Assembly: GCA_018900835.1 (NCBI GenBank)
Contig: JAHIFQ010000015.1
Location: 1-50,300 of the forward strand
From: Patescibacteria group bacterium
Lineage (GTDB): Bacteria; Patescibacteriota; Minisyncoccia; Minisyncoccales; PEYH01
Direction: 5' to 3'
DNA length: 50,300 nucleotides
Notes under the pieces: model-generated
Told to the model about the DNA's origin: nothing
Database searches by the model: none
What the model saw: only the letters and a program-made list of their open reading frames with translations
Shown here: piece after piece, positions 2,003 to 49,812 of the stretch
Layout: every line of letters begins with the position of its first letter
How positions within the stretch are numbered: position 1 is the first letter of the stretch
Translations under genes and position numbers: made by a program

Positions 2003-2117
2003 AAGAAGGGGTTTTTTGTTTTCCACTATTTCTCCACTACTTTTGCTTTGAATTTTTTGAGAATTAGTTTAAAATAGATTTAATAGAATAAAGAACAATT
2101 AAAGGCCTGCTTAGGAG
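2003..2117 (+). repeat. 115-bp perfect direct repeat, copy 1
   Basis: It is identical base for base to 3707-3821 (offset 1704). Copy 2 supplies the natural promoter region of the giant gene, so copy 1 is probably the duplicated flank. Both copies contain the same TTGAAT-16-TAAAAT promoter-like element. Confidence 0.92.
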
Positions 2118-2231
2118 TACAGAAAAAATAGTACACGTCCCCGATTTAAGAAAATAAATAGAATAAATAGTACACGTCCCCGATTTGTGCCGATTTGTGC
2201 GATTTCCCTGTTGCTTGTGAATATCTTATGG

Positions 2232-2260
2232 TTGACAGGCGATTTTGCAAGAGATATTAT
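2232..2260 (+). promoter_or_regulatory. Sigma70-type promoter for the AAA/DUF4143 gene
   Basis: TTGACA (2232-2237), a 17-bp spacer and TATTAT (2255-2260), about 58 bp before the ATG at 2318. It lies inside the repeat-bounded segment, so the ATPase gene carries its own promoter. Confidence 0.7.
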
Positions 2261-2317
2261 GTAAATATGTGGAGTGTCATTCCATAAATTCTTATAAATT
2301 TAAGGATAAGCAAAACT

Positions 2318-3451
2318 ATGATTAAACGTTATTATAATTTAGAAAAGTTAATAAAACCAAACAAAGCTCTGATTATTTATGGTCCTCGTAGAGTGGGTAA
2401 AACGACCTTACTTAATGATTTTTTATCATTTACTAAATTGAAATATAAATTGGACTCTGGAGACAATATCCGGATTCAAGAAATTTTCAGCTCTCAAAAT
2501 TTCTCGCAAATTAAGGAGTATGCTGCTGGTTATCAACTTATCGCAATAGATGAGGCGCAGCAAATTCCCAACATCGGCATAGGATTAAAAATTCTCATTG
2601 ACCAAGTGCCTGGTTTAAGCATAATCGCTACAGGTTCTTCTTCTTTTGATTTGGCGCAAAAAGTAGGCGAACCACTTACTGGTAGGAAGAAAACACTAAT
2701 TCTGTATCCTTTTTCTCAAGTGGAGCTTTTGGAAGAATATAATAAATATGAATTAAAAGAGAAACTTGAAGAATTTTTGATTTTTGGTTCTTATCCTGAA
2801 ATCATTACTGCCAAAAGTAACAAAGAAAAGATATCTTTATTAAACGAATTAGTTAATTCGTATTTATTGAAAGATGTTTTTAGTTTGGATAAAATAAAGG
2901 CATCAAAACAATTACTTGATTTATTAAAATTAATTGCTTTCCAAGTGGGCAGCGAGGTTTCTTTAAGCGAGCTGGCTACTCAAGTGAGGTTGGATGTTAA
3001 GACAGTGGGCAGATATTTGGATATTTTAGAAAAGGCCTTTGTTTTAAAACGAATCGGGGGATTTAATAGAAATTTACGGAAGGAAGTTTCTGGAAAAGCA
3101 AAATATTATTTTTATGATAATGGAGTCCGTAATGCAGTTATTTCTCAGTTTAATAATTTGAGCGATAGAGATGATGTCGGCGCTTTATTTGAGAATTTTG
3201 TTGTTATGGAAAGATTGAAAGACAATAGTTATAAAGCGAGGTCGGGAGATAGTTATTTCTGGCGGACTTACGATGGGCAGGAAGTCGATTTAGTAGAAGA
3301 AAGAAACGGCAAACTTTATGGATTTGAAATCAAATGGTCGCCTAAAGCAAAAATAAAAGAGCCAAAGGACTGGCTTGGAAGTTATAAGAATGCCCAATAT
3401 AAAGTAATCAATAAAGAGAATTATTTAGATTTCATTGGTTTAAGAGGTTAA
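2318..3451 (+). CDS. AAA_14/DUF4143 family ATPase with nuclease-like C-terminus
   Basis: A 377-residue ATPase of the family pairing an AAA_14 domain with DUF4143. Walker A is GPRRVGKTT (residues 22-30) and Walker B is LIAIDEA (74-80). A winged-helix-like stretch lies around 210-250 (SLSELATQVRLDVKTVGRYLDIL). The C-terminus has D324, E337 and K339 in the pattern of a degraded or active PD-(D/E)XK fold (EVDLVEE...FEIKWS). Such proteins are abundant in CPR, archaea and Bacteroidetes; their role is poorly known, with mobile-element or toxin-like behaviour often suggested. An AAGGAT Shine-Dalgarno-like site precedes the ATG. The whole gene lies between two identical 115-bp repeats, as expected for an inserted unit. 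Confidence 0.85.
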   Translation: MIKRYYNLEKLIKPNKALIIYGPRRVGKTTLLNDFLSFTKLKYKLDSGDNIRIQEIFSSQNFSQIKEYAAGYQLIAIDEAQQIPNIGIGLKILIDQVPGLSIIATGSSSFDLAQKVGEPLTGRKKTLILYPFSQVELLEEYNKYELKEKLEEFLIFGSYPEIITAKSNKEKISLLNELVNSYLLKDVFSLDKIKASKQLLDLLKLIAFQVGSEVSLSELATQVRLDVKTVGRYLDILEKAFVLKRIGGFNRNLRKEVSGKAKYYFYDNGVRNAVISQFNNLSDRDDVGALFENFVVMERLKDNSYKARSGDSYFWRTYDGQEVDLVEERNGKLYGFEIKWSPKAKIKEPKDWLGSYKNAQYKVINKENYLDFIGLRG

Positions 3452-3706
3452 GGCGCTAAAATGGTAAAATAGTGTCAATTCTATTTTATTGAAAGAGGAA
3501 TTATGATAAGATGAATGAGTATGGGAAGACCTCTAAGAATCGTTGTTCCGAATTTATTATCATTTTATTAGCCATTTTATTAGAAGAGCGAGGGAAAAAA
3601 GATTTATTGGGTTGACGGATTAAGGGGCCTCTGGGCGATTGTGAAGTACAGGATTGTAAAATAATCAATAATCAATAATCAATAATTAGTGATTAGTTAG
3701 GGCCCC

Positions 3707-3821
3707 AAGAAGGGGTTTTTTGTTTTCCACTATTTCTCCACTACTTTTGCTTTGAATTTTTTGAGAATTAGTTTAAAATAGATTTAATAGAATAAAGAAC
3801 AATTAAAGGCCTGCTTAGGAG
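3707..3821 (+). repeat. 115-bp perfect direct repeat, copy 2
   Basis: Second copy of the repeat at 2003-2117. It runs to within 20 bases of the GTG start of the giant gene and contains its likely promoter. Confidence 0.92.
3752..3779 (+). promoter_or_regulatory. Probable promoter of the giant surface-protein gene
   Basis: TTGAAT (3752-3757), a 16-bp spacer and TAAAAT (3774-3779), about 62 bp before the GTG at 3842. The same element exists in repeat copy 1 at 2048-2075, where it could read into the ATPase region. Confidence 0.55.
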
Positions 3822-3841
3822 CAGGGGAGTTATTTGGTATT

Positions 3842-6800
3842 GTGGTAATATTTAGAAAAAAATATTTATCGCTCGAAGAGGCAAGAAGATATTTGCGAAG
3901 AAGGGGCAAGACATATTCCTCTGCTTATTTGAGTTTGTTGGCGAAAAAGGAAAAATTACAAGCGATAAAAATTAATAAGAAATGGATTACTACAAGGGTG
4001 TGGTTGAAAGAATTTTTGAGTCAATCAAAGCTTGACCCCCAAAAACTCCAAAAGAATAAGAAAGCCAAAAAACTTGAGGTTCAAAAAGAAGGATTAGTTT
4101 TGCCATTATACTTTGGTTGGGCGATTAAACTTGATTTTGTAAAGTTTTATCGCGAAAATCTTGATTGGCATTTAGAGTGGCATCTAAAATTACCGAAATT
4201 GCCGATTAAGTTGAATATTAAATTTTTTCACAAAAAATGGCAGAGGATTATGAGCGCATTTTTTGCTGTTTGTATAATCGGGCTTGGAGGATTCCTGTTT
4301 TATCACATATATTTTACCTCCAGCGTAACTTATCAATGGGTTCAGACAGATTGGTCAGGAGGAGAGGACCAAGTCAATTATCCTTTACATCCGACAAATC
4401 AAACTAATTGGACAAAATACTGGTCTAAGGCGAGTGATATTAAAATATCTGTTGCAGGCGAAGTTAGTTATGAAACAAGCGCAACCCTACCTCCTAAAAC
4501 CGCCATTTTGCCAACTGCCAGATACGATGCTCCGGCTGTTTACGACACTACTTCTAATAAGTTTTACATTATCGGCGGGTATGATTTAGATGGCTCGGAT
4601 GACCCGAGATTTTTAACAGAGATAGTGCAATATAATTCATCTACTGATGTTGCTACAACAACAGGCATGGGCTCTCTGCCTGTTCAATTAAGAGGACATT
4701 CAGCAGACCTGAATCCTGATAATGGAAAAATATATATCTTTGGCGGATACGACAATACTAATTCTCAATTCAACAGCACTATTTATACTTTTAATCCTGC
4801 CAGTCCTTCAGGCGATGCCACGAGCACTGCTTATTCTTTGCCTTCTGGCAGGGAATATGCGCCAGCTGTTTATGCGCCTAATGTTGATAAATTCTACATC
4901 TTTGGCGGATTCTATTTAGACGGCTCACTAAACCAGACATATTTAGATGAGATTATTGAATTTAATCCATCCACAGGAGCAACTTCTACAATTACCGCAG
5001 GGTCTTTGCCAGCGCTTAAAGGCAGTTCAGCAGTATATTACCCAGTTAACGGGTTGATTTATATCTTCGGCGGTTATGACAATACCGCAGGAGATTATTC
5101 GGATAAAATATATTCTTTTAATCCTCTAAATCCAACTGCTGGCGCTTCTGATACAGGGTATATGATGCCGAGTAAAAGAGCTTACACCACAGCAGCTTAT
5201 TATTATAGTTTCGGCGATGCGAGTATTAAAAAAATGTATATTTTTGGCGGTTATCGTTTAACCGGAGACACTTCGTTTTATCTTAACGAAGTTTTAAAAT
5301 TTGATGGCACTGCCAGCCCTGCTGCGCAAGCAAATCCTTTGGCAAAAAATTTAAAAAGCGCATCAGCTGTTTTTAATTCTTCGGAAAATAAGATATATGT
5401 TTTTGCTGGCTTTGACGGAGACGGGGAGGCATTTTCAGACACAATTTACCATTATCCTCTTACTCCTATGGCCCCATTGGTATCTTCTCCATACAACACT
5501 ACTGACCCAGCAGTCACCTTGGCCCAGCTTTCTTGGAGCGAGACATTGGCTGGTGGCACAACGATTCTTTTCCAGATAAGAACAGCGAGTAATGATGATA
5601 ATAGCACGCCAGCTGACCCAAGCGATGATACCCCAAATATTTGGACTGATTGGTGCGGACCTGATAATGGAGCAGCAGGATGCGACACTAACACCTATTT
5701 CACTGATAATGCCGGCGGAGAGGCGATTGATGCGATATTTAAAGATGCTGCTGATGACCAATGGATTCAGTACAAAGTTTTCTTAATCACTGACTCTTTG
5801 GATCAAACTCCGGTTTTGAGCGATGTAACAATGACTTATGTTGTTAATACTGCGCCCACTGTTTCCGATGTAACAGGTTCACAGGATTCTGTTGGGGCAG
5901 TGAATATTAGTTATGGTTGGACAGACGCAGAAGAGGCGACAAGCACGATTTATCTTTTTTACGATTTAGGAATTACTTTGGATGGAGATATTGACGCGGA
6001 TGTTACTACGATTTCTGTTTCTGACGCCACTTACTTGGCTAATTCAGGGACCATTCAACTTGATTCTGAACAGATTACTTATATTGGGAAAAGCGGAAAT
6101 GATTTAACAGGGTGCACAAGAGGAGCTAACAATACTGTTTATTATAAGGCGACACATTCGTCAGGCGGAACGGTTTGGATTAAAGCGAATACCGCAACAG
6201 GAGATATTGGGTCTGGTATATCAGCTGGCAGCGGAAAGGCGATTGTTTGGACTCCAAAAACAGACATTGACGGTTATTACGCAGCCAGTACAGTCAAAGT
6301 TAGGGTGGTGGCAAATGACGGCAATGCTGCCAGACAAGCGGGTTCAGCGGATTCGTCTGTTTTTGAATTTGATACCAAAGACCCAGTAATTGGCTTAACA
6401 GCAGTGGGCAGTACAGGCATAGATATAAACGGAAATGCCACTACCAGCAAAGGGATAGAGAAAACTAATGTTTTGAGCAATATTGTTCATCTTGCAAGCA
6501 CTGATGATACTGCTTTAGAATTTATCTTATCTAATGACGGAACATTTGACACTGAAGTTTATGAGTCATACGCATCTTCAACCAACTGGTCGTTAGATGA
6601 GTTTTGCGCAGACCAGGAGTATGGCTGCGTGAAAACAGTTTATGTAAAATTCAAAGATACAAAGGGCAATGAAATCGGACCTTACACTGATACCATTACT
6701 TTGGATAATAATCCGCCAGCCATACCATCCAACTCCTTTATTCAGGATGTGTCTAATGCCAGCACAAGCCAGTTCCGGCTGTTTGTTACATGGGACAAGG

Positions 6801-25548: not shown

Positions 25549-25643
25549 TTATTACGAGGCCGGGCCTCGTAATTTTCGTAAAATGGCGGAACCCTTGCCA
25601 GTATTGAGGATTCTCACAACCCGCCCAGGGCTGGTAATTTTTG
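25549..25643 (+). repeat. 95-bp dispersed intergenic repeat, copy A (with palindromic head)
   Basis: It starts with a near-perfect palindrome TTACGAGGCC-G-GGCCTCGTAA, followed by TTTTCGTAAAATGGCGG and a tail ending CACAACCCGCCC. It is highly similar over 95 bp to 38068-38162; the palindrome alone recurs near 48651-48669. Each copy follows a gene end, so the palindrome may act as a terminator. The rest of 25514-25789 also holds a GCCGAGA/TCTCGGC hairpin (25687-25710, repeated at 37960-37983) and TAATTA-type low-complexity sequence. I see no gene here. Confidence 0.8.
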
Positions 25644-34572: not shown

Positions 34573-35481
34573 ATGTTTAAGAGAGTTGCAGTAGCACTAT
34601 TGGTCGGGGCAGTTATGGTTTTTTTGGCCAGCTGCGCATTGTTTAATCAGGAACCAGTCGCCTCCTTTGATGTGTCAGGCGATGTGAAGTTAGTCGGTCA
34701 GGGCTATCAAGTTGAGACAGGAGCAGAGATTGATTTTGACGCTTCTGACTCATTTGACCCGGATGGAGAGATAGGGTCCCATTTATGGGACTTTGGAGAC
34801 GGTATCAGTGAGGAAATAGATTCTTATCTAACGAGTCATTCTTTTTCGCAGATAGGAATATACTGGGTTACACTTCAAGTTTTTGATGAGTTTGGTAAAC
34901 CCAGTTGCGCCAACTGTATGGAAAAGAAGTTCGTGGTAACAAACCCAATCCCGCCTCCACCTCCACCTCCGCCTCCACCTCCGCCTCCGCCGCCTCCACC
35001 TCCGCCTCCGCCTCCACCTCCACCTCCACCTCCGCCACCTCCTCCGCCACCTCCACCTCCACCGCCTCCGCCACCTCCGCCTCCGACACCGCCTCCGCCA
35101 CCTCCACCTCCGCCACCACCTCCTCCGCCTCCGCCGCCGGTCTGTGACCAACCGCCAGTTGCGTATGTGCTAATCTCGGCTACGCCGTATCCACAGACAG
35201 TGCTGATGTTCCAGCTGGTTGGATACCAAGAGCCGTATCACAGCTCTGGGTATCATCCAGAGGACTTAGACCGGTTCAGGTTGACCTTCCTATCTCCGAC
35301 TGGAATTCCTCAATCGTTTGATAGTTGGGGGATAGCTGGACAACAAATTCCTTCCAATGGAAGGATTGAGGTCATCCTGAATGAAGCAGGGTCGTGGCAG
35401 GCCACTGGTACTGGATGGGGATTCTGTGGAGAGTGTCCAGTTTGCGACTTTTCTCACGCGTTCGAGGTAGTAGCTCCATAA
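34573..35481 (+). CDS. PKD-domain lipoprotein with a 45-proline run
   Basis: A 302-residue predicted lipoprotein. The signal peptide MFKRVAVALLVGAVMVFLAS ends in lipobox LAS-C21. Residues about 25-120 form a PKD domain (FDASDSFDPDGEIGSHLWDFGDG, then a strand-rich end with two cysteines). Codons 127-189 (34951-35139) are proline without exception apart from one threonine: 45 in a row, Thr, then 17. A C-terminal domain follows, with RFRLTFLSPTG and CGECPVCDFSHAFEV. The ATG at 34573 is preferred over a GTG at 34564 because GGAGG lies 8-9 bases upstream. Such a run would need EF-P for translation and could act as a rigid cell-wall spacer. GC-rich relative to its neighbours. Related to the next gene. 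Confidence 0.85.
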   Translation: MFKRVAVALLVGAVMVFLASCALFNQEPVASFDVSGDVKLVGQGYQVETGAEIDFDASDSFDPDGEIGSHLWDFGDGISEEIDSYLTSHSFSQIGIYWVTLQVFDEFGKPSCANCMEKKFVVTNPIPPPPPPPPPPPPPPPPPPPPPPPPPPPPPPPPPPPPPPPPPPPPPTPPPPPPPPPPPPPPPPPVCDQPPVAYVLISATPYPQTVLMFQLVGYQEPYHSSGYHPEDLDRFRLTFLSPTGIPQSFDSWGIAGQQIPSNGRIEVILNEAGSWQATGTGWGFCGECPVCDFSHAFEVVAP

Positions 35482-37914: not shown

Positions 37915-38222
37915 ATAATCAATTCAAGATAAAATAACGCTCGGCAATTCCGCCGAATTCCGCCGAGATCGTTTCTCGGCAAGTTCTCACACCGAACAAT
38001 GCACTCTTTTGGAAACATGGTTTCCAAAATTGCTGGTTTCCAAAATTGTTTTCCAACCACTTTTTTATTATTACGAGGCCCGGCCTCGTAATTTTCGTAA
38101 AATGGCGGAAGCCACGCTAGTATTGAGGATTCTCACAACCCGCCCAAGGCGGGTAATTTTTGCATAACAACTGACAAGAATGTATGGTTTTTTTAACAGA
38201 AGGAATATGTTAAGATATTGGA
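37915..38222. other. Repeat-rich intergenic stretch
   Basis: No gene. It holds a hairpin GCCGAGA/TCTCGGC (within 37960-37983, identical to 25687-25710), a local duplication of GGTTTCCAAAATTG at about 38020-38050, and copy B of the 95-bp repeat. The order of the two shared modules is reversed relative to 25549-25710, so they move or recombine separately. Confidence 0.7.
38068..38162 (+). repeat. 95-bp dispersed intergenic repeat, copy B
   Basis: It matches 25549-25643 over its full length with a handful of differences. The head is a perfect palindrome TTACGAGGCC-C-GGCCTCGTAA (38071-38091). Confidence 0.85.
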
Positions 38223-46049: not shown

Positions 46050-46151
46050 AAGTTAAATTTTCAATTACCAATTTACGAATTTTCAAGTTTGAAAATTGAG
46101 ATTTGGGATTTCATTGAAAATTAGAAATTGAAAATTGTAAATTTCGTGATT

Positions 46152-47261
46152 ATGGCTGAAGATTATTACAAAGTTTTGGGAGTTGAGAGGGGCGCTTCAC
46201 AGGAAGAAATCAAGAAGGCGTATCGTAGGTTAGCGCACCAGCATCATCCTGATAAAGGAGGAGAAGACAAAAAGTTTCACAAAATCAGTGAGGCGTATAA
46301 TATTTTGTCTGATAAGGAAAAAAGACAGCAATACGACCAATTCGGCTCCGCTTTTGACAATATGGGTGGGCAAGGCGGTTTTAACGGATTTTCTAATTTT
46401 GATTTTGGGTCGTTTTGGGAGCAGGCGCAGCAACAGGGCGGAGGAAGAGAGGGTTCTGGTTTTGATAATTTGGGCGATATTTTTGATGAATTTTTTGGAG
46501 GAAGGAGAACTAAAGGTGAGGACTTGAGAAGGGGAGATGATATTCAAATAGATGTTGAGATTAATCTGGAGGACACGCTCTCATCTGCAAAAAAAGAATT
46601 TAAGATTTATAAAAATGAAATTTGCGGGCGTTGCGCGGGGACTGGCGCTGAACCTGGAACAAAATTAAAGCAATGCCAGACCTGCCGTGGAATTGGACAA
46701 GTTCAGGAGATAAAGAGAACGGTTTTTGGAACAATCAGCCACAATACTATTTGCCCCTCATGCCAGGGACAGGGCAATATTCCAGAAAAAATCTGTAATG
46801 TCTGTAGGGGTGATGGCAGGATAAAAAAAGAGGAAATAATAGAAATAATTATTCCTGCTGGCGTGGACTCTGGGCAGGTGCTGAAATTTAAAGGAAAAGG
46901 AGAGGCAGGCAGGCGAGGTGGAGCCTTTGGAGATTTATATGTAAGAGTTTTTGTGCGTGAGCATAAAGTGTTTGATAGAAAAGGAGATGATTTATTTACT
47001 GAAATACCTGCGCAATTTTCCCAAATAGCTTTAGGTGATGACATTGAGGCGCCTATGTTGGAAAAAGGAAAGAAAATATTCCTTAAGGTTCCAGCAGGCG
47101 TAGAACCAGGGAAAATATTTAGAATCAGCGGTAAGGGAATACCAAGATTTTCCAGCTATGGAAGGGGTGATTTGTATGTTAAAATACGAGTGGATACGCC
47201 GAAAAGATTGACAAGAAAGCAGAAAGAGTTGTTAAACAAATTAAAACAAGAAGGGCTCTAA
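46152..47261 (+). CDS. dnaJ: Chaperone DnaJ (Hsp40, type I)
   Basis: A 369-residue type I J-protein from the ATG at 46152 ([16 protein letters not shown]); an upstream TTG at 46128 would only add AT-rich spacer codons. The J domain contains HHPDKGG with the essential HPD. A Gly/Phe-rich region follows (about 70-115), then four zinc-binding repeats [24 protein letters not shown] and CNVCRGDG, and the C-terminal substrate-binding domains with [17 protein letters not shown]. Everything needed for a functional DnaK co-chaperone is present. It is separated from dnaK by about 100 bp of AT-rich sequence with TTTTCAATT/AATTGAAAA inverted repeats. Confidence 0.96.
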
Positions 47262-47293: not shown

Positions 47294-47366
47294 GCCCCCG
47301 TAACTCAATTGGTAGAGTAACTCCCTTTTAAGGAGGCGGTTCCAGGTTCGAGTCCTGGTGGGGGCA
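47294..47366 (+). tRNA. tRNA-Lys (TTT)
   Basis: A complete 73-nt tRNA. Acceptor GCCCCCG pairs with TGGGGGC (one G.U), the D arm is ACTCAATTGGTAGAGT, and loop CTTTTAA holds anticodon TTT. The first anticodon-stem pair is A-G mismatched. The T arm is CCAGGTTCGAGTCCTGG. No CCA is encoded. The 86-bp direct repeat begins in its last three bases. Confidence 0.93.
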
Positions 47367-47449
47367 CATAAATTTTTGCCTTTACAAAAATTTGAGTAGT
47401 TGGCCCGCCCGATGCGGGCGAGTAATTAGTAATTAGTAATTAGGACAAG
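47364..47449 (+). repeat. 86-bp perfect direct repeat, copy 1
   Basis: It starts in the last three nucleotides of tRNA-Lys and is identical to 48487-48572 (offset 1123). It contains a GCCCGCCCGATGCGGGCG hairpin (about 47403-47420) and TAATTAGTAATTAGTAATTAG. Confidence 0.92.
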
Positions 47450-47609
47450 AAATCAAACAAGAAGTTAAAACGCGCTATGACAGATTTGCTAAAGAAGGTG
47501 GTTCGGCTGAAGGATGTTGCCCCGTAGGGGGAGAAAGTACCGAGAGTTTTGCCTTGGAGCACGGGCTTTACAGCAAAGAATATCTGCTGTTTGATTTTTT
47601 CATGTACAC
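47443..47609 (+). pseudogene. Truncated methyltransferase-like fragment (ArsM-like start)
   Basis: A 55-codon open frame without its own ATG begins at the end of repeat copy 1 and encodes QEIKQEVKTRYDRFAKEGGS, then AEGCCPVGG and ALEHGLYSKEYL, before stopping at 47607. The pattern (RY, GGS, CCP, then GLYSKE) resembles the N-terminal stretch of ArsM-type arsenite and related SAM methyltransferases, just before the SAM-binding LGCG motif, which is missing. I read it as a 5' gene fragment left when this segment was built. Identification is tentative because only about 50 residues remain. Confidence 0.45.
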
Positions 47610-47697
47610 ATGTTAGTGTTTAATGTTACGAAAATAACTTGGTAGTCCCTGCCACGAGGGTGTCGTGGTGAACGCACATTTGCAAAAGGAGGGTACC

Positions 47698-48234
47698 ATG
47701 CCCAAGAGAGCGGTAGTAGCTGTACCGAAGAGCTTAAATGAGGCGGCTCAGTTTTTGGCGGAGATAGGGCAAGAGCAGCGCGCCACCGATAAGATTCGGT
47801 CAGGCCTTAATGCCAAGGTGGACGAACTGAAAGCCAAGGCGATGGTCGAAGACGAGCATCATCAGGAAAAGATTTCACAGCTTGTCGAAGGTCTCTTCGC
47901 TTTCGCTGAAGCCCATCGCGATGAGCTGACCGATCACGGCAAGAGCAAGACAGTTGAAGTGCCAACGGGTACCTTCGGCTGGCGCATGACACCGCCAGCT
48001 GTATCGCTTCGTGATGTCGAAGCAATTCTGGAGTCTCTGAAGTCGCTTAAACTGAAGCGCTTCATCAGAACCAAGGAGGAAATAGACAAGGAAGCGATGC
48101 TGAAGGAACCTGACGTAGCCAAAACCGTCAAGGGTGTCTCTATCAGCCAGCGTGAGGAGTTCGTGGCAAAGCCGGCAGAGTTGGAAGTAGAGATAGCGAC
48201 TCAGGTCGACAAACTCAAGAAAGCTGTGGCTTAA
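47698..48234 (+). CDS. gam: Mu Gam-like host-nuclease inhibitor
   Basis: A 178-residue protein matching the phage Mu Gam family, a DNA-end-binding Ku-like protein that shields linear DNA from exonucleases. Visible features: a helical N-terminal half with coiled-coil heptads (EQRATDKIRSGLNAKVDELKAKAM), FAEAHRDELT with GKSKTVEVPTGTFGWRMTPPAVSLRDVEAILESL, and LKRFIRTKEEIDKEAMLKEPDVAKTVKGVSI, very close to the Mu Gam core. The ATG at 47698 has AAGGAGGG 5-6 bases upstream; an earlier GTG frame is not needed. The gene is GC-richer than its neighbours and lies alone between 86-bp direct repeats, without other phage genes. Confidence 0.88.
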   Translation: MPKRAVVAVPKSLNEAAQFLAEIGQEQRATDKIRSGLNAKVDELKAKAMVEDEHHQEKISQLVEGLFAFAEAHRDELTDHGKSKTVEVPTGTFGWRMTPPAVSLRDVEAILESLKSLKLKRFIRTKEEIDKEAMLKEPDVAKTVKGVSISQREEFVAKPAELEVEIATQVDKLKKAVA

Positions 48235-48273
48235 GAAGTTCCTCAATCAACGGACTGAGCAGTCCAACTGCTT

Positions 48274-48310
48274 CCCGCTATGTCTTCGGACCTCTGGCGG
48301 GTTTCCTTTT
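48274..48310 (+). terminator. Likely terminator of the gam-like gene
   Basis: CCCGC pairs with GCGGG (48274-48278 with 48297-48301), enclosing a GTC-TTCG-GAC hairpin with a UUCG tetraloop, followed by TTTCCTTTTCTT. The internal bulge makes it moderate rather than strong. Confidence 0.55.
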
Positions 48311-48486
48311 CTTATGCTTTTATGAAAGAACAATTGTGTGCACTCTGTGCACTCGAAATTTATTTGCAGCCAAAGAAAAACTTGAAATTGTCATTCGTGC
48401 GGCTCCGCCGCATTTTCAGAATTTCGTGGGGGGTTTTCCTCGCCGCCGCAGGCGGCGAAATGCGTTCGGACTATTTTCAATATACT

Positions 48487-48572
48487 GCACATAAATTTTT
48501 GCCTTTACAAAAATTTGAGTAGTTGGCCCGCCCGATGCGGGCGAGTAATTAGTAATTAGTAATTAGGACAAG
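48487..48572 (+). repeat. 86-bp perfect direct repeat, copy 2
   Basis: Second copy of 47364-47449. The pair brackets the methyltransferase-like fragment and the gam-like gene. Confidence 0.92.
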
Positions 48573-48691
48573 GAAACAAACATTTGCTTCCAAGCAAAAA
48601 TTTATTCCTAACTACAAATTACTCACACAAAATACAAATTTAATAAAAGATTACGAGGCCCGGCCTCGTTGTTTTTATTCAGTGCGTTTTG

Positions 48692-48768: not shown

Positions 48769-49812
48769 ATGCGTAAAGGGTTTTGGCTTCTAATATTTTT
48801 TATTTTGGGAGCGGTTCTTTTTTACTTCACGCTCCGAGGAGTAGGAATTGAAGGCGTAGTTTCCATTTTATCTATGATTAGGGCTTGGCAAACGCTTTTA
48901 GCTATTTTCATTTTATTTACAGGCATAGTAATCATTGGTGGCTATAAATGGTGGATGATAATTCATTTAAATAAAAAAGAAGACGCAAAACTGTCTAGAG
49001 TAATGATTGCGAAGTTCATTGGCTATAGTATCAGTTATGTGACGCCTTCATCGTTAGTCGGAGGAGAGCCAGCAAAAGTTCTTTACTTAAAAGAAGAAAC
49101 AAAGCTTTCCACAAGCAGGATTATAAGTTCCATTATATTAGACGAGATAATACTGTTCTTTTTAATAATCATGGTGTTTTTTATGGGCATTTTCTTTCTG
49201 TTGATTTATATGCATTTATCATGGTTGGCAGAAATTATCGGACTTGGGTTAATGGCTGGGGCAATATCAGCAATCTTATTGATAATATGCAAGACGAGGA
49301 AAATGGCGTCTGGCAAGGGCTTGTTCAAGACATTCGCAGAGCGATTTTATTTAAATAAACTCAAAATAATAAAACAGAATATGGGCGCGTTGGATGAAAT
49401 AGAAAGAGATATTATAAAATTTTTTCGCAGGCCAAAAAAAGAGCTTATAGAAATTTTCATATTGGCTATAATGGAGCTTTCAGCTCTTTTATTAGCTGCT
49501 TGGTTAATATTGGCATTTTTGGGAGTTCGGCTTGATATTACACGATTGTTCGTGGTAAGAAGTATGACAGATGTTTCTGGTTTTTTTCCGCTTCCAGCAT
49601 CATTGGGCACATTAGAGATTTCACAAGCGTTTGTTTTTGTAGGGCTTGGGATGGATTCTGCTGTTGGGGTCGCATTTAGTTTGATATGGAGAGGGTTAAA
49701 CCTGATTATGGCCGCTTGCGGACTGATAGTATTTATGTTTATTCAGTTCGGTTTTTTGAAAAAAAGGATTATTGTATTTATAGAAACATTAACGGATAAA
49801 ATAAAAAAATGA
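48769..49812 (+). CDS. Flippase-like/lysylphosphatidylglycerol synthase TM-domain protein (UPF0104)
   Basis: A 347-residue membrane protein with about eight spans, of the LPG_synthase_TM/UPF0104 family (PF03706-type). Conserved features: WWMIIHLNKKEDAKLSRVMIAKFIGYSISYVTPSSLVGGEPAKVLYLKEE, the family's core G-x-x-x-x-x-x-P-x-x-x-G-G-E-P block, and VRSMTDVSGFFPLPASLGTLEISQAFVFVGLG toward the C-terminus. The catalytic domain of MprF is absent, so it is probably a lipid or glycolipid translocase-type protein rather than an aminoacyl-lipid synthase. Its stop overlaps the next start (ATGA), coupling it to a CtpA protease. Confidence 0.87.
   Translation: MRKGFWLLIFFILGAVLFYFTLRGVGIEGVVSILSMIRAWQTLLAIFILFTGIVIIGGYKWWMIIHLNKKEDAKLSRVMIAKFIGYSISYVTPSSLVGGEPAKVLYLKEETKLSTSRIISSIILDEIILFFLIIMVFFMGIFFLLIYMHLSWLAEIIGLGLMAGAISAILLIICKTRKMASGKGLFKTFAERFYLNKLKIIKQNMGALDEIERDIIKFFRRPKKELIEIFILAIMELSALLLAAWLILAFLGVRLDITRLFVVRSMTDVSGFFPLPASLGTLEISQAFVFVGLGMDSAVGVAFSLIWRGLNLIMAACGLIVFMFIQFGFLKKRIIVFIETLTDKIKK

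Follow-up and report, generated by a model that had tools for sequence, protein, structure and literature searches.

A Mu Gam-like gene behind tRNA-Lys in a Patescibacterium: a probable damaged relative of a family of small tRNA-end cassettes

What brought a solitary Mu Gam-like gene to the 3' end of a tRNA gene in a Patescibacterium, and why is it framed by two long and perfect direct repeats? The locus lies on contig JAHIFQ010000015.1 (C15 of the host genome, G000, a 20-contig draft of 654,511 bp), in a stretch of 50,300 nt called the window here. Our comparisons suggest that the unit is probably a damaged cassette without a recombinase, lodged at the 3' end of tRNA-Lys and belonging to a family of small elements found across the Patescibacteria, and that its 86-bp repeat was added by a secondary event. 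The features on which this reading is based are collected in Table 1.

Table 1. Features of the repeat-bounded Gam unit and its flanks, in window coordinates.
Feature	Position	Strand	Evidence
dnaJ, upstream flank common to same-genus genomes	46128-47261	+	Pfam, synteny
tRNA-Lys (UUU), intact; 3' end is the insertion point	47294-47366	+	ARAGORN, Rfam RF00005
Left 86-bp repeat: GCAC core and truncated copy of the tRNA-trailer element	47364-47449	+	Sequence comparison
ArsM-like methyltransferase remnant, codons 42-88	47446-47586	+	83% match; Pfam of full-length relative
Conserved leader of the Gam gene	47588-47697	+	88% over 100 bp with L001
Mu Gam-like gene, 178 aa	47698-48234	+	PF07352 (Phage_Mu_Gam), E 2.8e-35
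Conserved right end (RE), abutting the right repeat	48427-48486	+	Profile match 48432-48492, E 3.7e-22
Right 86-bp repeat: GCAC core and first part of the trailer element	48487-48572	+	Sequence comparison
Full-length tRNA-trailer element (end approximate), presumed to have flanked tRNA-Lys downstream before the insertion	48490-48640	+	Same element at tRNA-Ser (G000), tRNA-Arg (G001, G004)
LPG_synthase_TM gene, downstream flank common to same-genus genomes	48769-49812	+	Pfam, gene-order comparison

The anatomy reported in a preliminary description of the window was confirmed throughout. The perfect 86-bp repeats are identical at every base (100%) at both coordinates and start 1123 bp apart; the bases preceding them differ (TGGGG and ATACT), and ungapped extension of the match gives 96 bp at 98%. 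The left copy does begin within the last three bases of tRNA-Lys(UUU) when the gene is delimited by Rfam, the ARAGORN boundary lying one base further on, at 47367. Within G000 the 86-mer occurs in these two full copies, in one further copy that matches at 76% along almost the entire length, and in two partial matches, and the G+C content of the insert is 49% against 39% for the window. The two coding features said to lie between the repeats, a Mu Gam-like gene and a truncated methyltransferase, were likewise recovered by a Pfam match and by alignment with an ArsM-like gene whose full-length relative is a methyltransferase; the remnant has lost codons 1-41, together with the left end (LE) discussed below, and a second deletion follows codon 88. 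No integrase ORF was found between the repeats, as had been stated, nor any recombinase gene, and the contents of the unit, Gam and the arsM remnant only, include neither a Mu transposase nor the structural genes of a Mu-like prophage. The leader of the Gam gene, seen also at L001, L002 and L004, contains an inverted repeat, CCACGA...TCGTGG, with a possible role in regulation or in binding of Gam.

Gam is a single-copy gene in G000 and a rare one in the phylum (6 of 379 genomes, G000 counted in); 3 of the 60 nearest genomes have it, all of the same genus. Searches with tblastn placed it on seven Patescibacterial contigs at 67-81% identity, and at L001 and L002 a full arsM stands directly 5' of it, so that the fragment in the window can be read as the leftover of that pair. 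As in phage Mu, the Gam domain spans most of the protein, which is 34.9-42% identical to Gam of Mu-like phages in the 20 matches listed; unlike the Mu gene, it stands alone here. The Patescibacterial clade is about 63-92% identical internally and at most 47% identical to viral contigs. By pairwise identity the nearest relative of the window Gam is that of L004, from the Uhrbacteria (90%), and the partial Gam sequence of G003 is nearest to that of L002 (92%). Whether relatives share the arrangement, a matter raised in the preliminary description, has a divided answer: in the same-genus genome G001, Gam does stand beside the same tRNA-Lys, but without the repeats, and since it is only 72% identical to the window gene its arrival there looks separate. 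Most forks of the Gam tree are weakly supported; on the three identities (72%, 90% and, for a partial sequence, 92%) vertical inheritance of Gam within the genus was rejected, and related Gam genes have spread horizontally. A tRNA or tmRNA occurs within 1.6 kb at 10 of 14 Patescibacterial Gam loci; in the G000 sample the figure is 15.7% (5,535 positions). Among the 14 loci, L107 and L113 probably represent a single orthologous site, the tRNA is the same for the window and L005, and a contig end truncates one locus.

The sequence abutting the right repeat, which we call RE, recurs 3' of Gam at L002 and in G003 (L024, L111) and 5' of Gam at L004. Used as a pattern with at most two mismatches, it was found in 18 places in 12 of 379 genomes, and the reversed pattern, a control, had no match in the genomes listed. 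With a profile of RE, 31 of the 379 Patescibacteria genomes gave matches, at 60 places in all, a lower bound given the strict filters; 53 of the 60 were examined, leaving out six weak ones and one beside the recombinase of G378. An origin of RE as a phage part was rejected, there being no exact match in viral contigs. The association with tRNA genes was measured on the 36 RE matches of at least 27 bits that have at least 3 kb of readable sequence upstream: a same-strand tRNA lies within 3 kb upstream in 22 and an opposite-strand one in 2, the background for a same-strand tRNA being 9.1% of random positions, drawn from the G000 sample only. No same-strand tRNA lies within 3 kb of the other 14. 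With a limit of 1.5 kb the counts are 14 of 41 and 2 of 41; within 900 bp to both sides (39 sites) they are 7 upstream on the same strand, 0 upstream on the opposite strand, 4 downstream on the same strand and 3 downstream on the opposite strand. Inverted pairs of RE in these counts are not independent sites. Agreement between the core that follows RE and the 3' end of the upstream tRNA was discarded as proof, since it holds in some units only and RE mostly ends in GCACCA anyway.

Complete relatives of the unit read from a tRNA ending in CCA through an LE of about 120 bp, cargo and RE to a second CCA, and their direct repeats measure about 3-7 bp. The layout of the family is tRNA...(GC)ACCA, LE, cargo, RE, (GC)ACCA, with the junction just after the CCA-like end of the tRNA. 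Examples of LE lie behind tRNA-Leu (G028, G303), tRNA-Arg (L004, G195), tRNA-Gly (G280) and tRNA-Lys (G003). An LE profile, built from 13 chosen seeds of which many had been picked for following a tRNA, gave 25 non-redundant matches at E<=1e-5: 11 at the 3' end of a tRNA or tmRNA, 8 directly after RE and 6 in neither position. Seeds make up 12 of the 25, and the other 13 divide into 2 after a tRNA, 6 after RE and 5 neither; two of the six 'neither' matches (L186 plus strand, L159) follow a sequence that resembles a tRNA 3' end by eye and is not called by ARAGORN. At one site the insertion can be compared with its absence. About 1.9 kb (1.87 kb) separate tRNA-Leu(caa) of G028 from RE, GCACCA and ATTAAAAATCTC, beside a conserved neighbour gene that is YrdC-like by eye; at the empty site of G022, tRNA-Leu ends in GGCACCA and continues into ATCAAAAATATT beside the same neighbour gene. 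The comparison shows, for one unit, insertion at the CCA end. Among 19 loci of relatives with this neighbour gene, tRNA-Leu(caa) is nearby in 5, and none of the 5 has LE in the 120 bp behind it.

The ORFs between tRNA and RE mostly encode small membrane-anchored proteins without a Pfam match (9/40 cargo ORFs scanned); one carries a prepilin N-terminal motif (PF07963), and the cargo at L004 includes a Bestrophin-like gene. At L150 (G240:C1, 1023-3846) cassette-like copies of 97-99% identity follow each other in tandem, 920 bp apart, behind tRNA-Arg. A plain cassette does not account for the inverted pairs in which several RE and LE are found.

Set against this layout, the Gam unit has RE at its right border with the GCAC core directly after it, and tRNA-Lys on the same strand at its left border, 1065 bp from RE. 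LE is absent from its place directly after the tRNA CCA, where the 86-bp trailer copy stands instead, and the LE profile has no match in the window or in the rest of the 409-kb G000 sample. Because LE is missing, the unit is a damaged relative of the LE/RE cassette family and not an intact member. Several other Gam relatives (L003, L005, L006, L007) have neither LE nor RE. Another reading is an artefact of assembly, in which the 86-bp repeat had joined two strain variants or two loci; G000 is a draft in 20 contigs, and the length of the repeat is near the k-mer sizes used by assemblers. We consider this quite improbable, given that G001 has Gam beside the same tRNA-Lys and that RE is placed as in other genomes.

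The 86-bp repeat itself corresponds to the first part of a longer trailer element, some 125-150 bp in length. In G000 this element is found immediately behind tRNA-Lys (in two copies, one of them via RE), tRNA-Ser and tRNA-Tyr; it lies behind tRNA-Arg in G001 and G004, and a further G004 contig starts at its GCAC. The trailer pattern has 7 matches (four in G000, one in G001, two in G004), in 3 of 247 genomes of the order, and in none of the 7 is the trailer copy followed by intact cargo. In the window the right copy is full length, whereas the left copy breaks off at 86 bp, where arsM takes over at codon 42. A duplication of 86 bp as the normal product of insertion was rejected, the complete relatives having about 3-7 bp, and in G003 the same tRNA-Lys bears LE and, further on, GCAC and then trailer-like sequence, as expected of a cassette site. 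Every one of the 7 pattern matches abuts a tRNA 3' end or a GCAC core, which would suit a history in which the trailer is itself a mobile end and the 86 bp are the common left end of two elements inserted successively at the same tRNA. Stacking of this kind is seen at L004, with 75-bp repeats at 93%, and in the tandem cassettes of G240. For the Gam unit we regard it as unlikely: the left copy ends prematurely and is fused within arsM, and the two copies are perfectly identical, down to a 19-bp insert that is missing from the tRNA-Ser copy and that points to local duplication.

The preferred origin of the repeat is sought in a cassette already in place. An older ArsM-Gam cassette would have sat at tRNA-Lys and undergone an aberrant excision in which LE and the first part of arsM stayed in place while GCAC and 82 bp of the trailer went with the excised DNA. 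The resulting circle would have re-entered by a single crossover through the 86 bp, catalysed by RecA or by the serine recombinase described below acting at the core, to give tRNA-GCAC-trailer86-arsM'-gam-RE-GCAC-trailer, which matches the observed order. Judged by the anatomy of the unit, aberrant excision with single-crossover re-insertion is the likeliest source of the repeat and would account for all four junctions. The same product would result if, after a normal insertion, replication had slipped from the left GCAC to the right GCAC and, after copying 86 bp of trailer, switched at a short match into arsM, so that LE and the arsM start were replaced; a few bases could indeed pair between the trailer GGACAAGGAAACAAAC and the arsM relatives, (A)GGAAATAAAAC or CAGAAATAAAAC. 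Such template switching seems to us an improbable course, as it takes two switches, one of them at a match of about 4 bp, and does not explain why the repeats extend beyond the core.

A large serine recombinase (PF00239 and PF07508) occurs in 9 places at an identity of some 70% or higher, 2 of the 9 being partial or broken, and in 6 of the 9 it adjoins RE; the copies beside RE are those of G195, G210, G386, G085 and G294 and the broken copies in G280 C17, and close copies in G280 C18, G344 and G195 C3 (partial) have no RE match nearby. At six loci the gene lies between two inverted LE copies (both matches E<1e-5), two more loci, in G344 and G352, being weak, and the inverted arms are perfect over 100 bp in G195 and 84 bp in G386. 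A tRNA is present in 8 of the 12 best recombinase loci. Members of the wider recombinase family are common, being present at E<=1e-30 in 178 of 360 genomes, and presence by itself therefore means little; G000 has no such recombinase at that threshold. We infer that the large serine recombinase moves the cassettes, also in trans. The proposal of an integrase-less satellite at a tRNA survives these results in modified form: RE is associated with the 3' ends of tRNA genes and, in other genomes, with a serine recombinase not present in G000. The 86-bp repeat, however, is neither an attachment site nor a normal target duplication. At L144 (G195:C1) the recombinase at 1215-2838 lies between the 100-bp inverted LE, and cargo at 2846-3917 lies between inverted RE (54 bp, 94%); both may be invertible segments.

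The preliminary description had further linked the Gam unit to a 115-bp case, in which perfect repeats bound a gene for an AAA_14/DUF4143 ATPase (window 2003-3821); it suggested a common mechanism that inserts single genes with long flanking duplications, and end joining helped by a Ku-like Gam as one possible form of it. Other repeat-bounded single-gene units do occur in the G000 sample. At L070 (G000:C4, 10459-13430) two extra copies of a promoter and 5' end, comM by eye, bracket a membrane protein with a Gp49/HTH pair and a 166-aa repeat protein, with intact comM next; at L072 (G000:C7, 7813-8640) repeats of about 120-130 bp bracket an NYN-domain gene. The common mechanism is nevertheless not upheld. 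The RE model matches G000 at the Gam unit only, the LE profile has no match in the 409-kb sample, the 115-bp unit included, and neither profile finds its end in the 115-bp, comM or NYN units. Complete relatives of the Gam unit, moreover, carry repeats of only about 3-7 bp, and no sign of Ku-like end joining was seen in this sequence analysis of the unit and its relatives; we hold Gam-helped end joining to be very improbable here. Short repeats like TAGTACACGTCCCCGATTT adjoin the 115-bp unit and also bracket an ORF at 475-1203, transposase-like by eye. A GC-rich hairpin repeat family (ACGAGGCCGGGCCTCGT...) is dispersed in G000 (L065, G000:C14, 2274-13163; window 25549-25643 and 38068-38162), and a long CCT/CCG/CCA-rich tandem tract occupies 34930-35177 of the window.

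The cassettes resemble several known systems in part. Integrative mobilizable elements (IMEs), tycheposons and genomic islands insert at tRNA 3' ends, keep the tRNA whole, share a short core, carry cargo and stack, and the cassettes described here share these traits; they differ in their association with a large serine recombinase, in the use of many different tRNAs and a tmRNA, and in size, most of the units examined measuring about 0.6-3 kb and containing no recombinase. Integron cassettes are genes between recurrent sites, arranged in tandem arrays and served by a tyrosine recombinase encoded in another unit. The present cassettes likewise hold one to three genes between recurrent sites, form tandem arrays and have their recombinase in another unit, whereas the enzyme is a serine recombinase and the anchor a tRNA 3' end. 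The pdif modules of Acinetobacter are Xer-flanked resistance modules that use XerCD and dif sites; they are, similarly, gene modules without a recombinase between recombination sites, and they differ from the cassettes, which have RE, LE and tRNA ends. Titles and abstract openings of work on tRNA-end integration, serine recombinases, integrons or gene cassettes in Patescibacteria/CPR contained no description of such cassettes, which is not proof of absence.

More tentatively, and as a proposal that still falls somewhat short of probable, the Patescibacteria may possess an integron-like system in which a large serine recombinase uses the generic 3' end of almost any tRNA, from T-arm to CCA, as its attachment site. 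It would comprise LE-recombinase-LE platforms with an inverted RE/LE site, together with non-autonomous cassettes whose one to three genes encode Gam, ArsM, pilin-like or small membrane proteins. The cassettes would also form tandem arrays, and all of these would be shared horizontally between distant lineages. For the reading of single genomes, the Gam unit teaches that a long perfect repeat beside a tRNA is not necessarily an attachment site. Gene gain in the reduced and mostly uncultured Patescibacteria is little understood, and a recurrent element end, a generic target at tRNA ends and an associated recombinase together provide a concrete and testable route for it, with RE and LE as a search model for cassette cargo in Patescibacteria genomes.
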